Assembly (NCBI GenBank): GCA_017434025.1 | Contig: JAFRGC010000029.1 | Span: 1 to 50,305 of the forward strand | Reading direction: 5' to 3' | Origin: Mogibacterium sp. | GTDB taxonomy: Bacteria > Bacillota > Clostridia > Peptostreptococcales > Anaerovoracaceae | DNA length: 50,305 bases | Part shown: one piece after another, positions 26,560 to 50,305 of the stretch | Numbering within the stretch: the first letter of the stretch is position 1 | Layout of the letters: the number at the start of each line of letters is the position of its first letter | The notes under the pieces: model-generated | Databases searched by the model: none | Seen by the model: the letters and a program-made list of their open reading frames with translations, nothing else | What the model was told of the DNA's origin: nothing | Program-made: the position numbers and the translations under genes

Positions 26560-27366
26560 ATGAAATCCATCATCCGGACGATCGGCAATACAGCGCTTGA
26601 CCTGCTGTATCCTCCGGATCTGTACTGCGTATGCTGCGGCAAGATCATTGACTCCAGCAGGACCTACAGACTGTGCAATGACTGCATGGACGGGATCAAA
26701 TGGATCGGAGAGAGGACCTGCAGCAAGTGCGGCAAGAGGCTTGCTGAGATCAATCCGATGGATACTTGTTTCAGCTGCAGAGAACACGAGCACAGCTACG
26801 ACAGGGGATACACGTGCGCCGAATACGGAACGCATGAGAGAGCGATGGTCTATGCGCTCAAATACGACAGCCGGCCGGATATCGCTGACACCATCGGAGA
26901 GATCATGTATGACAGGATGCGTGCGGAATTTGGCAGGAAACTCGGATATCTGTACGATCTGATCCTGCCGGTGCCTGTGAGCAGACGCAGGAAGAGCAGG
27001 AGAGGATATAACCAGGCTGCTCTGATCGCCGAAGCATTCTGCAGACGTGCGGGACTGACCTGCGATGACGATATCCTGATCAGGGTCAGGGATACTCACG
27101 CGATGAGATCGCTGTCACCGGATCAGAGACGCGAGAACATACTGGGAGCGTTCGAGATACGCAGCAGACGCCGGGAAGATATTTCAGGCAAAACACTTCT
27201 CCTTATAGACGATATTTACACGACCGGCGCTACAAGTGACGAGATCGCGCGCATTCTCAAAGAGCCATGGGAGGACCTGACCGGCGAGAAGCAGGCCGGA
27301 GCATCACGCGTAGATGTGCTGACATTTGCAGCCGGAGCAGATATGGTGAAGAGTTCTGACAGTTAA
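26560..27366 (+). CDS. comF: ComF family phosphoribosyltransferase-like protein
   Basis: A 268-residue protein of the ComFC/GntX type linked to DNA uptake and repair. The N-terminus has two Cys pairs (CVCCG near 22-26, CNDC near 40) and a second set CSKCG and CFSC, forming zinc fingers. The C-terminal PRTase domain has LPVPVSRRRKSRRGYNQA near 140-155 and the PRPP loop LLIDDIYTTGAT near 214-225. Family members bind single-stranded DNA-uptake machinery, although activity is poorly defined. AAGGAG lies upstream of the ATG. Confidence 0.88.
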   Translation: MKSIIRTIGNTALDLLYPPDLYCVCCGKIIDSSRTYRLCNDCMDGIKWIGERTCSKCGKRLAEINPMDTCFSCREHEHSYDRGYTCAEYGTHERAMVYALKYDSRPDIADTIGEIMYDRMRAEFGRKLGYLYDLILPVPVSRRRKSRRGYNQAALIAEAFCRRAGLTCDDDILIRVRDTHAMRSLSPDQRRENILGAFEIRSRRREDISGKTLLLIDDIYTTGATSDEIARILKEPWEDLTGEKQAGASRVDVLTFAAGADMVKSSDS

Positions 27367-27757: not shown

Positions 27758-28642
27758 ATGAAGCCTGTGACATCCGGAAAAATGAAAAAGGTGCTTGCCG
27801 CAGTATTACTGATCGCTTTGATCGCGGGAGGAGTTGTTGTGATGCTTCCGACTATAGAAGGCATGAAATTCAAAAATGATGAACTGGAGTCATGTTCCGT
27901 CTCGACCGGAGGCGGTATGCTTGGCGGGAACAGCGGAGCATATCTCAGCAGGGACAATGATGGAAATGCGGTCCTTGAGATCAGGAAGAGAGAGACCCAT
28001 GCTGACAGAGAAATAACGACTACATATAAAGTTGATAACGCAGCGTTTGATCATATCCGCGGGATAGTGGTCAAATGTGACCTGTATGCTGCAAGCAAGA
28101 AAGGTTACAGCGAATTCCAGGCACTCGACGCAGATACGACCACACTGCACTTCAGCTTTTCAGAAGGCTCATTCAGTATCTCCGATGAGCAGGAGCTCGA
28201 CAGGAAGATGAGAGATGGGTTTAATGAGGTCGAGGCTTATCTGTACTCGCTGGCTCAAGGCGAAGGGATCACGACCATGGAACCTCAGACTGCGATGTTG
28301 TACCTTAAGAGCGGTTATACGTTCACTTTCATAGTTGAGGATGCATTTGACAGCAAACTCGACAATATTCTCAGTGAAGAGAAAGAAGTGGTGCCGCAAG
28401 GCAGCTTCGGCATATTGCTGAATACTGCCGACGGGCTGGATACATCAGGGGCTGAGGCACTTGAGACCGGCGCTGCCGGCACGATCGTTTATGACAGCAC
28501 CAACGGGCAGGTCGTGATCCTGTATGAGGATCATGAGTTCGGATATCCTGTGTATCAGCTTGCTCATCTGGAATGGATGAGCGAGAACTCGTTCCCGCTG
28601 ATTGCAGAGATGGAAGGAGTATACAGACTGCATTTCAACTGA
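27758..28642 (+). CDS. Hypothetical membrane-anchored extracellular protein
   Basis: I do not recognise the family. The 294-residue product starts with a short basic region and one hydrophobic helix (about residues 10-30, VLAAVLLIALIAGGVVVML) that is either an uncleaved anchor or a signal sequence without a clear cleavage site. The rest is acidic, beta-rich by look and probably outside the cell. A Gly-rich stretch STGGGMLGGNSGAYLSRDNDG lies near 50-70. It begins 8 bp after the arsC-like stop; the ribosome site is weak, and ATG 27782 is an alternative start. No Cys-based lipobox. Expression is likely coupled to the upstream gene. Confidence 0.65.
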   Translation: MKPVTSGKMKKVLAAVLLIALIAGGVVVMLPTIEGMKFKNDELESCSVSTGGGMLGGNSGAYLSRDNDGNAVLEIRKRETHADREITTTYKVDNAAFDHIRGIVVKCDLYAASKKGYSEFQALDADTTTLHFSFSEGSFSISDEQELDRKMRDGFNEVEAYLYSLAQGEGITTMEPQTAMLYLKSGYTFTFIVEDAFDSKLDNILSEEKEVVPQGSFGILLNTADGLDTSGAEALETGAAGTIVYDSTNGQVVILYEDHEFGYPVYQLAHLEWMSENSFPLIAEMEGVYRLHFN

Positions 28643-28648
28643 AACCGA

Positions 28649-28677
28649 TAGTCAAAAGAGTATTGATGTGATACAAT
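28649..28677 (+). promoter_or_regulatory. Promoter of the structured RNA
   Basis: TAGTCA (28649-28654), 17-bp spacer and TACAAT (28672-28677) with TG at 28668-28669 nearby. A start about 7 nt downstream coincides with the first base of the closing stem at 28685. Confidence 0.6.
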
Positions 28678-28684
28678 TTCAAAC

Positions 28685-28859
28685 GATCCGCGCGGGTCAT
28701 GTTCGTGGTTGAAAGTCCATGCCAGATACGGGCAAAGGGACCCACGTAAGCAGTGCGCAGGAAGCCGCTGTGATCATGGCGTATCTTAGAAGTAAGTCCT
28801 CCGGAAACCGGGTACAGGCAAGTGTGGGGTCAAAGACCAGGTCGAGTGGCCCGCGGATC
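28685..28859 (+). ncRNA. Candidate stand-alone structured RNA (possibly raiA-motif type)
   Basis: A 175-nt GC-rich block with no open frame in an AT-rich intergenic gap. The ends form a perfect 8-bp stem, GATCCGCG (28685-28692) and CGCGGATC (28852-28859). Inside are CCGG-AAA-CCGG (28801-28811), GGTC-AAA-GACC (28828-28838) and the motif GGTTGAAAGTCC near 28708. A promoter ends right before it. The size, clostridial host and GAAAGTCC box recall the raiA-motif RNA, and hpf/raiA lies 6 kb away, but I cannot confirm the match from memory. RNase P is excluded since no ACAGAA/GGCTTA region exists. A very AU-rich hairpin plus ATTTTTAT at 28891-28931 might end the transcript. Confidence 0.6.
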
Positions 28860-28890: not shown

Positions 28891-28928
28891 TATATTTATT
28901 GACATGGATTTGTCAATAAATATATAAT
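28891..28928 (+). promoter_or_regulatory. Consensus promoter inside a 14-bp perfect inverted repeat (hypD operon)
   Basis: TTGACA (28899-28904), 18 bp and TATAAT (28923-28928). The arms TATATTTATTGACA (28891-28904) and TGTCAATAAATATA (28911-28924) are perfectly complementary around TGGATT. The left arm holds the whole -35 element; the right arm fills the spacer and touches the -10. The TTGACA-N6-TGTCAA core resembles Crp/Fnr-type or other dimeric operators. Confidence 0.8.
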
Positions 28929-28944
28929 TTTTATAGAGAAAATT

Positions 28945-28958
28945 TAGACCGCGGTCTA
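28945..28958. promoter_or_regulatory. Second palindromic operator candidate, TAGACCGCGGTCTA
   Basis: A perfect 14-bp palindrome just downstream of the predicted transcription start (about 28935) and 16 bp before the activase start codon. Its sequence is unrelated to the upstream palindrome, suggesting a second, different regulator. Confidence 0.65.
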
Positions 28959-28974
28959 TAACAAGGTACACGTT

Positions 28975-29886
28975 ATGCATGCAATAACAAATATCCAGAA
29001 ATATTCAATACATGATGGCGACGGCATCAGGACTACAGTGTTCTTCAAGGGATGTCACCTGAGGTGTCAGTGGTGTCATAACCCTGAGACACAGAAGTTC
29101 GAGAAGGAACTCCAGGTCGATATTCCGAAATGTACAGGATGCGGCAGATGCGCGGCGGTGTGTCCACAAGGAGCGATCAGCATCTCTTCTGAGGGCAAGT
29201 CCGTAACAGACCGCACCAAGTGTATCGTTTGCGGTAAGTGCGAGAACGCCTGCCTCGGCAACTACAGGACTGTAGTTGGCAAAGACTATACGATCAAAGA
29301 ACTCGTCAGGATCTGCATGCAGGACCAGATGTTCTATGAGGAGTCGGGCGGCGGAGTCACACTTTCGGGCGGTGAAGTCATGGCCATGGATACCGAATAC
29401 ATCCAGGCGCTTGTCAAAGCCCTGTACCGTGAAGGCGTCTCTGTGACGATCGATACATGCGGACAGGCACCGTACAGCAATTTCGAAGCGATCGCAAAGT
29501 ATGTCGATACCTGGCTGTATGATGTCAAAGTCATAGATGACGATCTGCACAGGCAGTACATGGGCATGGGCAACAAAGTGATCCTGGAGAATCTTGTCAA
29601 GCTTGCTGCCACCGGCGCACGCATTTACATCAGGATCCCTGTTGTCAAAGAAGTGAATGGCAACTGGGAATCCATGGGAGCGATCATTGATTTTCTCAGG
29701 GAGAACAATATCAGACCGCCGCAGGTCAATCTCCTGCCTTATCACAGCACAGGATCACATAAATACGGCAAACTCGGGATCGAGTATCCGGGACAGCTGC
29801 TGACGACACCGACAGATGAAGAAATGCAGGAGTTCGTCAGGATGTGGAATGAAGCCGGTTTCACCAATGTCAAGATCGGCGGATGA
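28975..29886 (+). CDS. Glycyl-radical enzyme activating enzyme (radical SAM), partner of HypD
   Basis: Radical SAM activase of 303 residues that abstracts a hydrogen from the active-site glycine of its partner. The radical SAM cluster motif is C27-x3-C31-x2-C34 (CHLRCQWC). An inserted ferredoxin-like domain has KCTGCGRCAAVCP near 53-65 and KCIVCGKCENAC near 82-94, giving two more 4Fe-4S clusters, as in the PflC/CutD/HypE group. VTLSGGEVM near 124 is the GGE SAM-binding motif. AAGG precedes ATG 28975. It is followed after 101 bp by the glycyl-radical enzyme in the same operon. Confidence 0.92.
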   Translation: MHAITNIQKYSIHDGDGIRTTVFFKGCHLRCQWCHNPETQKFEKELQVDIPKCTGCGRCAAVCPQGAISISSEGKSVTDRTKCIVCGKCENACLGNYRTVVGKDYTIKELVRICMQDQMFYEESGGGVTLSGGEVMAMDTEYIQALVKALYREGVSVTIDTCGQAPYSNFEAIAKYVDTWLYDVKVIDDDLHRQYMGMGNKVILENLVKLAATGARIYIRIPVVKEVNGNWESMGAIIDFLRENNIRPPQVNLLPYHSTGSHKYGKLGIEYPGQLLTTPTDEEMQEFVRMWNEAGFTNVKIGG

Positions 29887-29987
29887 TCCGGTACTGATAC
29901 TCAGGTAACAATTTAGCTTTAATATAAGAACCACCAGATAAGAACAACCAACAGATCACACAACATCGACTAACACGGAGGGTCAAA

Positions 29988-32360
29988 ATGGAAGAACGCG
30001 GAATGAATGCAAGGATCAGAGCTCTTCGTAAGCTCAGCCAGGAGACACAGCCTCATCTCGACCTCGAGAGAGCGCTTATTGAGACTGAAGTTTACAAGAA
30101 ATGGGAAGACAAGGTCTCCCTGCCAGTTCTGAGAGCGCTCGTGCTCAAAGAGTACTTTGCTAAGAAGACACTTTATCTCGGAGAAGGCGAGCTCATCGTC
30201 GGCGAGAAGGGTAAGGACCCACAGTGCTCACCGACTTTCCCTGAACTCACATGCCATACTCTCGAAGACATGCACATCATGAACGAGCGTGCAGTCGTCA
30301 ATTTCTCGGTAACTGAGCAGGATCTCAAGGACCAGGAAGAGATCATCATCCCTTACTGGAAGGGTAAGTCCATGAGAGACAAGCTCCTTGCCAGCATGAC
30401 TGATACTTGGAAAGAATGCTATGCAGCAGGTATGTTCACAGAGTTCATGGAGCAGAGAGGCCCTGGACACACTTGCGGCGGCAAGAACGTATTTATTAAG
30501 GGATACGCAGACTATAAGAAAGAGATCCAGGATACGATCAACGCTCTGGACTTCATGACCGATCCTGAAGCTCTTGCCAAGAAGGACGAGCTCGAGGCTA
30601 TGCTCATCGACTGCGATGCTGTCATGATCCTCGGCGACAGATATCACGAACTCCTCAAGGCTGAGGCAGAGAAGTGCGAAGACCCTGTCCGCAAGGCAGA
30701 GCTCGAGCAGATGGCTGCTAACTTCGAAGTCATCCCAGCACACAAGCCACAGACTTTCTGGCAGGCTATTCAGCACTATTGGCTGACACACCTTGCTGTT
30801 ACAACAGAACTCAACCCTTGGGACGCTTTCAGCCCGGGCAGACTCGACCAGCACCTCAATCCTTACTATGAGAAGGACGTTGAGGACGGCATCCTCGACG
30901 ACGAGAAGGCTCTTGAACTCCTCGAGTGCCTGTGGGTCAAGTTCAACAACCAGCCGGCACCTGTCAAAGTCGGCGTCACACTCAAGGAGAGCGGCACATA
31001 CACTGACTTTGCCAACATCAATACCGGCGGTATCAAGGAAGACGGAACCAGCGGCGTCAACAATGTCAGCTATCTGATCCTCGACTGCATGGATGAGATG
31101 AGACTCGTTCAGCCGAACTCCAACGTTCAGATCAGCAAGAAGACCCCGCAGAAGTTCCTCAAGAGAGCATGCGAGATCTCAAGAAAAGGCTGGGGACAGC
31201 CGGCATTCTACAACACTGACGAACTCGTTCAGGAGCTCCTCAATGCAGGAAAGACACTCCTCGACGCACGTCAGGGCGGATCATCCGGATGCGTTGAGAC
31301 TGGTTCATGGGGCAATGAGGCATACATCCTCACAGGATACCTCAATATCCCTAAGATCTTCCAACTCACACTGTACAATGGATTCGACCCACAGAGCGGC
31401 AAACAGCTCGGAATCAAGACCGGAGATCCGAGAGATTTCGAGACCTATGAGGAACTCTGGGACGCTTTCACCAAGCAGCTCCACCACATGGTAGACATCA
31501 AAGTCCGCGGCAACAACGTTATCGAGAAGCTCTACGCTCAGTATATGCCTGCTCCATGCATGTCCATCGTTACGAATGACTGCATCAAGAAGGGCAAGGA
31601 CTATAACAACGGCGGATCAAGATACAATACCAGATACATCCAGGGCGTCGGCATCGGAACGATCACTGACTGCCTCTCGGCTATCAAGTACAATGTATTT
31701 GACAACAAGAATTTCACCATGGACGAACTGATCAAGGCGATGGACGACAACTTCGTCGGACACGAGGAGATCTTCAACATGGTCAGCAACAAGACTCCGA
31801 AGTACGGCAATGACGATGACTATGCAGATGACATCATGAAATCTGTATTTGAGCAGTACAGAGATGAGGTAACAGGACGTCCTACAATGAGCGGCGGACA
31901 GTACCATGTCGACATGCTGCCTACAACATGCCACGTTTACTTCGGTTCGGTCATCGGAGCTACCGCAAACGGAAGACTGGCTCACAAGCCGGTATCTGAG
32001 GGAATTTCACCTGAGAAGTTCGCGGATACTCATGGACCTACAGCAGTTATCAAATCCTGCGCTAAGATGGACCACATGTCCACAGGCGGAACACTTCTCA
32101 ACCAGAAGTTCACACCGAGCGCTATCGCAGGTGAGACAGGACTTGACAATCTCGCAAGCCTGATCCGTACATACTTCGCAATGGACGGTCACCACATCCA
32201 GTTCAACGTATTTGACAAGGAGACACTCCTCGAGGCTCAGAAGCATCCTGATGATTACAAGGATCTCATCGTTCGTGTAGCAGGATACTCTGATTACTTC
32301 AGGAACCTTGACGAAGAGCTGCAGAACGAGATCATCAACCGTACTGCACAGTCTTTCTAG
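29988..32360 (+). CDS. hypD: Glycyl-radical trans-4-hydroxy-L-proline dehydratase
   Basis: A 790-residue glycyl-radical enzyme, expected to dehydrate trans-4-hydroxy-L-proline to 1-pyrroline-5-carboxylate under anaerobic conditions. The thiyl cysteine is C435 with E437 (SSGCVETG) and the radical glycine is G766 (RVAGYSDYF), each one residue off the positions known for C. difficile HypD (434, 436, 765). Long stretches recalled from HypD are shared, such as NNQPAP(V/P)KVG, TYTDFANINTGGI and NKTPKYGNDDDYAD. Length also matches (789). Pyruvate formate-lyase and choline lyase are less likely since PFL has a Cys-Cys pair and CutC differs around the active site. GGAGG lies 7 nt before ATG. The product would be reduced to proline by ProC. 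Confidence 0.88.
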   Translation: MEERGMNARIRALRKLSQETQPHLDLERALIETEVYKKWEDKVSLPVLRALVLKEYFAKKTLYLGEGELIVGEKGKDPQCSPTFPELTCHTLEDMHIMNERAVVNFSVTEQDLKDQEEIIIPYWKGKSMRDKLLASMTDTWKECYAAGMFTEFMEQRGPGHTCGGKNVFIKGYADYKKEIQDTINALDFMTDPEALAKKDELEAMLIDCDAVMILGDRYHELLKAEAEKCEDPVRKAELEQMAANFEVIPAHKPQTFWQAIQHYWLTHLAVTTELNPWDAFSPGRLDQHLNPYYEKDVEDGILDDEKALELLECLWVKFNNQPAPVKVGVTLKESGTYTDFANINTGGIKEDGTSGVNNVSYLILDCMDEMRLVQPNSNVQISKKTPQKFLKRACEISRKGWGQPAFYNTDELVQELLNAGKTLLDARQGGSSGCVETGSWGNEAYILTGYLNIPKIFQLTLYNGFDPQSGKQLGIKTGDPRDFETYEELWDAFTKQLHHMVDIKVRGNNVIEKLYAQYMPAPCMSIVTNDCIKKGKDYNNGGSRYNTRYIQGVGIGTITDCLSAIKYNVFDNKNFTMDELIKAMDDNFVGHEEIFNMVSNKTPKYGNDDDYADDIMKSVFEQYRDEVTGRPTMSGGQYHVDMLPTTCHVYFGSVIGATANGRLAHKPVSEGISPEKFADTHGPTAVIKSCAKMDHMSTGGTLLNQKFTPSAIAGETGLDNLASLIRTYFAMDGHHIQFNVFDKETLLEAQKHPDDYKDLIVRVAGYSDYFRNLDEELQNEIINRTAQSF

Positions 32361-34802: not shown

Positions 34803-35336
34803 ATGAAGATCCAGATTTCTGCAAAGAATTACCCTATGAGTGAGAAGCTCAGCAATTATATCGAGAAGAAGCTGGGCAAGCTCGACAAGTATTTTAACGA
34901 AGATGTCACAGCCAATGTAGTCGTATCCAAATTAAGAGAAGTACCTAAGTTCGAGGCGACTATCAATGCGAAACAGGCTGTTTTCAGAGCAGAGATGGCG
35001 AATGACAGTATCTATGATGCTGTAGACCTTGCCACAGAGAAGCTCGCCAATCAGATGTCCAAGCTTAAGGGCAAGCTGGAGGCACGATATAAAGAGAACA
35101 AGGCTCTCAAGCTGGAGTTCGTTCCGGCACCTGAGCTGGAAGAATATGAGGAAGATCTCGAGATCGTAAGAAGGAAGCAGGTAGAACTTTCGCCAATGGT
35201 AGCGGAAGAAGCAGTTCTGCAGATGGAAATGCTCGGACATGACTTCTTCGTTTTCCTGGATATGGACACAAATGCAGTAAGCGTTGTATATAAGCGTAAA
35301 GGCGGAGAATACGGCCTTATCGAGACCGACAGATAG
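34803..35336 (+). CDS. hpf: Ribosome hibernation promoting factor, long form
   Basis: A 177-residue protein that dimerises 70S ribosomes into inactive 100S particles in starvation. The N-terminal ribosome-binding domain (1 to about 97, MKIQISAKNYPMSEKLSNYIEKK) and the C-terminal dimerisation domain (about 120-175, VVRRKQVELSPM-like through VSVVYKRKGGEYGLIE) are both present. GGAGG lies 7-8 nt upstream. It begins a four-gene run with LCP, cdaA and cdaR. It belongs to the same family as RaiA, after which the raiA-motif RNA is named. Confidence 0.93.
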   Translation: MKIQISAKNYPMSEKLSNYIEKKLGKLDKYFNEDVTANVVVSKLREVPKFEATINAKQAVFRAEMANDSIYDAVDLATEKLANQMSKLKGKLEARYKENKALKLEFVPAPELEEYEEDLEIVRRKQVELSPMVAEEAVLQMEMLGHDFFVFLDMDTNAVSVVYKRKGGEYGLIETDR

Positions 35337-50131: not shown

Positions 50132-50305
50132 GTGTATGACGGGCATGCCGTCAGTCTGTGGTGAAAGTCCACAAGGGGCGTAGTTGCCGACGAACCCCAC
50201 AGCGACTTGCAAGGTTTGCATCGTGAGGTGCAGGCGAGAAGAAGCAATAGCGAAATCGTGGCCCTACGGACAGAAACTGGATATGAAGGCGCACACGGCG
50301 GGCAA
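50132..50305 (+). mobile_element. Group II intron, 5' part (class C-like), cut by the window end
   Basis: Begins GTGTA (GUGYG-type 5' end) right after the T run of a terminator. Hairpin GACGG-CCGTC (50138-50152) is followed by GGTGAAAGTCC (50160-50170), a ACGAACCCCACAGCGAC region, CATCGTGAGGTGCAGGCGA and GGACAGAAACTGGATATGAA, which line up by eye with domain I of the Oceanobacillus iheyensis class C intron (GUGUGCCCGGCAUGGGUGCA opening, GGGUGAGAGUCC and later AACACGAACUUCAUAUGAGG). Class C introns insert after intrinsic terminators, as here. Domains II-VI and any reverse transcriptase are outside the window. Confidence 0.85.

Follow-up and report, generated by a model that had tools for sequence, protein, structure and literature searches.

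Which RNA, if any, lies in the gap in front of the hydroxyproline dehydratase (hypD) operon of a Mogibacterium sp. (GenBank assembly GCA_017434025.1, contig JAFRGC010000029.1; the whole stretch of 50,305 nucleotides analysed is called the window here), and does it act on this operon in cis or elsewhere in trans? An earlier reading made from the sequence alone had placed a stand-alone structured RNA there, suggesting that it may be a raiA-motif RNA and otherwise a new one. As that reading had stated, the gap contains no open frame; it extends from the stop of the upstream ORF at 28642 to the start of the hypD activase gene at 28975. Between them lies a GC-rich block on the plus strand (28685-28859), which starts with GATCCGCG and ends with CGCGGATC. 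A covariance search against Rfam assigned positions 28692-28854 to the raiA motif (RF03072) with 131.8 bits (gathering cut-off 101.3, E 2.6e-32) and an alignment spanning the whole model from 1 to 209, and this was the sole match to the family in the source draft genome (2.2 Mb, 84% complete). Thus, both the RNA gene and the guess at its family were confirmed, a new RNA family was ruled out by the match, and the fallback of a new RNA was not needed. Folding of the single sequence was weak (z −1.68, with 11/200 shuffles equally good), so that the covariance match and the comparison with homologues carry the identification. The Rfam alignment shows five non-standard pairs in the P5 stem, which pairs in a different register.

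For this comparison, an exact pattern for the compact form of the RNA found here was searched in genome contigs, resulting in 116 stretches, many of them assigned to Mogibacterium or Family XIII and others only to Clostridiales or Bacillota, including named strains of Eubacterium brachy, Gallibacter, Baileyella, and Mobilibacterium. RNAs could be cut out at 112 of these loci, using extraction anchors that favour conserved ends, and gave 111 distinct sequences; four loci were dropped for unclear boundaries (L063, L080, L088, and L146), L063 being the contig of the congener G007, whose RNA is internally gapped. The alignment comprised 78 sequences, namely that of the window and 77 of the distinct RNAs, hand-picked and not chosen by score, with 34 left out. 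As counted structure, we placed the published model (P1, P3, P4, P5, P6, and pk-1, as given in PMC11751092) on the window sequence, leaving the two pairs of pk-2 out of the count. Standard pairs occupied 98.2% of the cells compared to 83.3% in shuffles, changes on both sides were seen in 26 of the 41 pairs compared to 17.2, and 550 cells had changed on both sides compared to 190; none of these values was reached in any of 500 shuffles, and the number of pair types was as high in one of them. Structures slid along the alignment paired at most 42% of the cells, a control against which the structure is flattered by having been placed on the window itself. Double changes above both controls occurred in seven of the eight helices, pk-1 among them, so that the comparative folding proposed in the sequence-only reading did reveal covarying stems.

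The helix of P1, P1b, and P1c is formed by a 5' strand at 28692-28710, which pairs with 28835-28839 and 28843-28854, and a 3' strand at 28835-28854 that is backed by the Rfam match and by covariation; 15 of its 17 pairs showed changes on both sides. The perfect 8-bp closing stem noted earlier is partly an alternative register that reaches past the conserved core, while P1 according to Rfam is 28692-28700/28846-28854, and the GGTTGAAAGTCC box could be identified as the P1c/junction/P3a core. Within 28715-28741, P3a (28715-28717/28739-28741) had double changes in two of three pairs, and P3b (28721-28723/28731-28733) in one pair and one sequence only. The P3 loop AGATACG (28724-28730) provides the 5' strand of pk-1 and pairs with CGTATCT at 28780-28786, as in the published raiA model (PMC11751092); these seven pairs were formed in 99.6% of the cells, and four of them were double-changed. 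In the following region (28742-28779), P4 (28742-28744/28777-28779) never varies in the 78 sequences and is hence neutral, and P5 (counted as 28750-28753/28768-28771) covaries, as do P1 and P3a. The small hairpin CCGG-AAA-CCGG at 28801-28811 was recognized by comparison of the 78 sequences as a short P6 that replaces the P6-P8 domain. Its first three pairs are formed in 71-77 of the 78 sequences, the remainder being unpaired in this alignment, and the fourth, the sole covarying one, is GC in 31, CG in 25, AU in nine, GU in six, and unpaired in seven.

P7 and P8 are absent, and P6 is reduced to this small hairpin. According to the description in PMC11751092, 32% of raiA RNAs belong to variant 1 with a short P6 stem-loop, variant 2 carrying the P6-P8 domain, and therefore the form is not new: the element is a raiA-motif (ModT) RNA, a member of a known family in its known compact variant 1. 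Compared by description, the short stem-loop after the pk loop is shared with variant 1, and no difference was found. With the raiA/ModT RNAs of C. acetobutylicum and C. difficile (RF03072) it shares the covariance match, P1, P3-P5, pk-1, the GGTTGAAAGTCC core, a probable promoter of its own and, in its relatives, comFC upstream and hpf downstream; it differs from them in its length (163 nt of model match versus about 200-210), in the short P6 hairpin without P7/P8 and hence without the E-loop, and in the hypD cassette located between RNA and hpf.

Among 40 genomes (the source and 39 relatives), 32 revealed a match to RF03072, 31 of them above the cut-off. Within the genus, 20 of the other 23 genomes had a match, and the three lacking one were 59-90% complete. 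Matches above the cut-off measured 160-167 nt in the genus and 201-218 nt in the 11 matching relatives of the order. A wider draw from the class (293 genomes, 67 with the RNA) displayed the same division, with 163-178 nt in the window's family (seven genomes, counting that of the window) and at least 196 nt in the other sixty. The only genus match below the cut-off, with 45.8 bits, was that of G007 (L172:6950-7400; also L063), in which an internal gap removes P3 together with one strand of pk-1, either by natural loss or by an assembly fault. Such a gapped congener, as well as a score in the window below the 148-204 bits of full-length RNAs, would suit a decaying remnant whose function was lost with P7/P8. 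Yet the 78 sequences preserve the compact form, with covarying pairs and numerous loop positions that never change, and it corresponds to a published class (PMC11751092); we regard decay as extremely improbable.

In regard to transcription, the sequence-only reading had proposed a sigma-A promoter TAGTCA-17-TACAAT, the end of which lies 8 positions before the block begins. The probable promoter (28649-28677, plus strand, 9/12) consists of the weak −35-like TAGTCA and an extended −10 element, TGATACAAT, at 28669-28677 with TG before the −10; the scanned stretch contained three promoter-like sites compared to 0.9 expected. Upstream of the cut-out RNAs, within at most 45 nt, TGnTAnnnT was present at 39 of 112 loci compared to 6.3 in shuffles (highest 13), and the stricter TGnTAnAAT at 33 compared to 0.8. 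Thus, the extended −10 part of the proposal is enriched but not universal, the strict pattern being absent at 73 of 112 loci, and the −35-like hexamer showed no conservation by eye across 17 hand-chosen upstream regions. In these 17, TGnTAnnnT was seen by eye in 14, a flattering set to which we prefer the count over 112 loci.

A scan of the window found no GC-rich (classical) terminator. Downstream of the RNA, at 28891-28924, a perfect inverted repeat of 14 bp followed by TAATTTTTATAG may serve as an AT-rich terminator, and it overlaps the hypD promoter; an 86-nt stretch including the repeat folded with z −4.42, equalled by none of 200 shuffles. At the same place, the loci L093, L098, and L119 carry GC-rich hairpins and T runs instead, as judged by eye. 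From its own promoter, the transcript would thus extend to the vicinity of the P1 stem or to the AT-rich hairpin and would fold into the pseudoknotted raiA core indicated by covariance match and covariation, and judging from the arrangement of these signals, RNA and hypD operon are most likely separate transcripts. On the minus strand, the inverted repeat also gives rise to a site at 28916-28889 that resembles a promoter (11/12) and is directed back through the raiA RNA, either by chance or as an antisense start.

The neighbouring genes for the HypD activase (28975-29886) and HypD (29988-32360), both on the plus strand and above the cut-offs of NF043069 and NF043068, form an inserted cassette (28975-32360). 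The sequence-only reading had considered that the RNA may act on them in cis, and a leader or riboswitch of this operon, sensing for example hydroxyproline or proline, has several points in its favour: the RNA lies on the same strand with 115 nt from its end to the activase start codon, Rfam labels RF03072 as 'Cis-reg; riboswitch', and the cassette directly follows the RNA in seven genomes, namely the window, G007 (L063), G010 (L162), G015 (L093), G023 (L054), L098, and L119. As with riboswitches, a structured RNA precedes a metabolic operon in the same orientation; unlike them, the operon has an independent promoter, no expression platform was seen, and the downstream gene is not constant. 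Of the genus genomes, 21 including the window's have a match to the RNA; hypD adjoins it in five of them, so that the RNA occurs more often without hypD beside it; 12 harbour a full-score hypD elsewhere, which is on another contig in 10 and about 14 and 22 kb from the RNA in G016 and G013, respectively, and in the remaining four (G002, G005, G019, and G021) hypD was not found over the cut-off. Furthermore, a perfect separate promoter (TTGACA-18-TATAAT, 28899-28928, 12/12) and the palindrome TTAGACCGCGGTCTA at 28944-28958, a likely operator of the hypD operon that is conserved in cassette loci, are located between RNA and activase, TTGAC and TAGACYRCGGTCTA each being kept in all six cassette loci aligned (G007 was left out of the seven). 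With a consensus promoter and a conserved palindrome belonging to the cassette itself, control of hypD in cis is unlikely. Taking into account also that complementation in trans has been published for orthologues of the RNA (PMC11706538), we hold a hypD riboswitch to be highly improbable; the adjoining hypD genes would instead represent a lineage-specific arrangement that is not the target of the RNA.

In a tree of hpf, the cassette accounted for three changes, based on eight cassette rows of which one is a duplicate genome (x162 = G010); it may have been gained once, the resolution of this tree being too low to decide. An exact second copy of TTAGACCGCGGTCTA was identified in the source genome (G000:C7:9154-9168, L174), about 40-130 nt, depending on start codon choice, upstream of a gene for an OppA-like peptide-binding protein, with a C-terminal piece of a maturase nearby; a third palindrome-like place on C51 has one base different. 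The second copy makes TTAGACCGCGGTCTA a candidate for the operator of a regulon concerned with hydroxyproline/peptides.

The gene order commonly found around the RNA is recD2, comFC, RNA, and hpf. In the window, the usual upstream neighbour is represented by a comFC-like gene (26560-27366, plus strand; ComF models below the curated cut-off, double zinc ribbon PF18912), separated from the RNA by two ORFs, and the usual downstream neighbour by a displaced gene for a long-form Hpf/RaiA (34803-35336, plus strand; TIGR00741 above the cut-off, PF02482, PF16321) at a distance of 5.9 kb. That hpf is 6 kb away, which the sequence-only reading had regarded as a peculiarity for a raiA-motif RNA, is true but explained by the hypD cassette sitting between them, an arrangement of few genomes; a gene for an amino acid carrier (agcS) and one ORF widen the gap as well. 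With distances counted from where the cut-out RNA ends to where the tblastn match begins, hpf follows downstream on the same strand at 85 of 112 loci, at 19-878 nt (thus at most 0.9 kb) in 82 and at about 3.8 kb in three with the hypD cassette. At five loci (L056, L086, L090, L127, and L144) comF and RNA stay together with hpf upstream on the opposite strand, at one (L134) hpf is downstream on the other strand, and at 21, some with little downstream sequence, none was seen. A comF gene lies upstream at 79 of 112 loci, on the opposite strand in seven of them, and downstream on the opposite strand at two; none was seen at 31. Altogether, the common unit is comFC-RNA-hpf and not RNA-hypD.

This conserved order speaks for an element that ancestrally regulated hpf in cis and was decoupled here by the insertion, as does the association with the raiA gene in 66% given in PMC11706538; that study refers to Soares et al. 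2024 for this figure, for the 74% with comFC as neighbour, and for C. acetobutylicum. At the six loci with hpf on the other strand the RNA is nevertheless retained and cannot be an hpf leader, and it is likewise retained in the cassette genomes in which hpf is displaced by about 3.8-6 kb; nor can it depend on a comF transcript at the seven loci with a divergent upstream comF. Considering also the published complementation in trans, cis control of hpf as the ancestral role appears improbable, and an effect on hpf may exist in some species, as hpf is found downstream on the same strand at so many loci.

With these alternatives weighed, we consider it very probable that the window, from a Mogibacterium-like gut bacterium, harbours a stand-alone compact raiA/ModT gene with its own promoter and a pseudoknotted core, acting in trans, without hypD as a target and with an ancestral output more basic than sporulation or c-di-GMP signalling. 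In C. difficile, ModT is described as an abundant, stable, and trans-acting RNA with a SigA promoter that affects growth transition and, through c-di-GMP, sporulation (PMC11706538), and raiA RNA was found to be monomeric (PMC12286853). For this RNA, a riboswitch role has been argued against (PMC11477304). On the question of cis or trans, left undecided in the sequence-only reading, analogy favours trans, and the trans-acting role described for ModT agrees best with the findings; in the studies consulted, trans action is described only for orthologues of the larger form. By the same analogy, here with knock-outs of orthologues, the RNA would influence the transition from growth into stationary phase, probably within an RNA-protein complex.

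Its output was addressed by the occurrence of GGDEF and Spo0A_C domains in the class draw, using one search each at an E threshold of 0.001; a genome not named among the matches was taken as lacking the domain, as read by hand, and 66 of the 67 RNA-bearing genomes, mostly drafts, are at least 95% complete (source genome 84%). Among these 67, GGDEF was unmatched in 12, Spo0A_C in 19, and both in eight from four families (G026, G037, G169, G185, G197, G215, G257, and G293); all eight possess an HPF domain, as did all 14 genomes looked at. Since the RNA is present in eight of 67 genomes without either match, c-di-GMP or sporulation as a universal output is unlikely, and both look like lineage-specific outputs at most. 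GGDEF was matched in 55/67 genomes with and 174/226 without the RNA (p 0.41), and Spo0A_C was rarer with the RNA (48/67) than without it (190/226; Fisher p 0.03), neither p value being corrected for kinship. Sporulation as the driver of RNA retention was thus not borne out. Among the literature matches listed, no title or abstract opening announced such a co-occurrence test of the RNA with GGDEF or Spo0A.

Within the genus, none of the 24 genomes, including that of the window, had a match to spoIVA (TIGR02836). In the source genome, GGDEF was matched twice and Spo0A_C once and weakly, the latter in a 198-aa protein (G000:C14, L167:552-1148, minus strand) in which Spo0A_C is the sole domain matched, with no receiver, and whose gene adjoins a ComEA-like gene; in 19 of 24 genus genomes Spo0A_C matches fall in reading frames of 137-232 aa. 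G008 and G022 displayed 53 and 27 GGDEF matches, respectively, compared to 0-9 in the other genus genomes.

Because the RNA persists where neither a c-di-GMP synthase domain nor a Spo0A domain is detectable, its ancestral output may be more basic and, speculatively, close to the ribosome or RNA housekeeping. More tentatively, and with rather more doubt than confidence, we suggest that the compact RNA of this lineage without detectable spoIVA is a natural minimal ModT, in which the core of P1, P3-P5, and pk-1 alone would carry the ancestral function, independent of the P7/P8 E-loop arm, Spo0A-dependent sporulation, and c-di-GMP, and nearer to ribosome hibernation or RNA housekeeping. The authors of the ModT study ask whether complementation is possible with orthologues lacking the E-loop and whether c-di-GMP is the general route of ModT action (PMC11706538), and both questions are directly testable in a lineage in which the RNA lacks P7/P8 throughout and whose members have no spoIVA match and partly no GGDEF match. 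Ordinary as the identity of the element is, the lineage is useful in this respect. Besides the raiA RNA, a group II intron (RF02001, 46.7 bits) is represented in the window by its 5' part at 50217-50305, which runs off the end of the contig.
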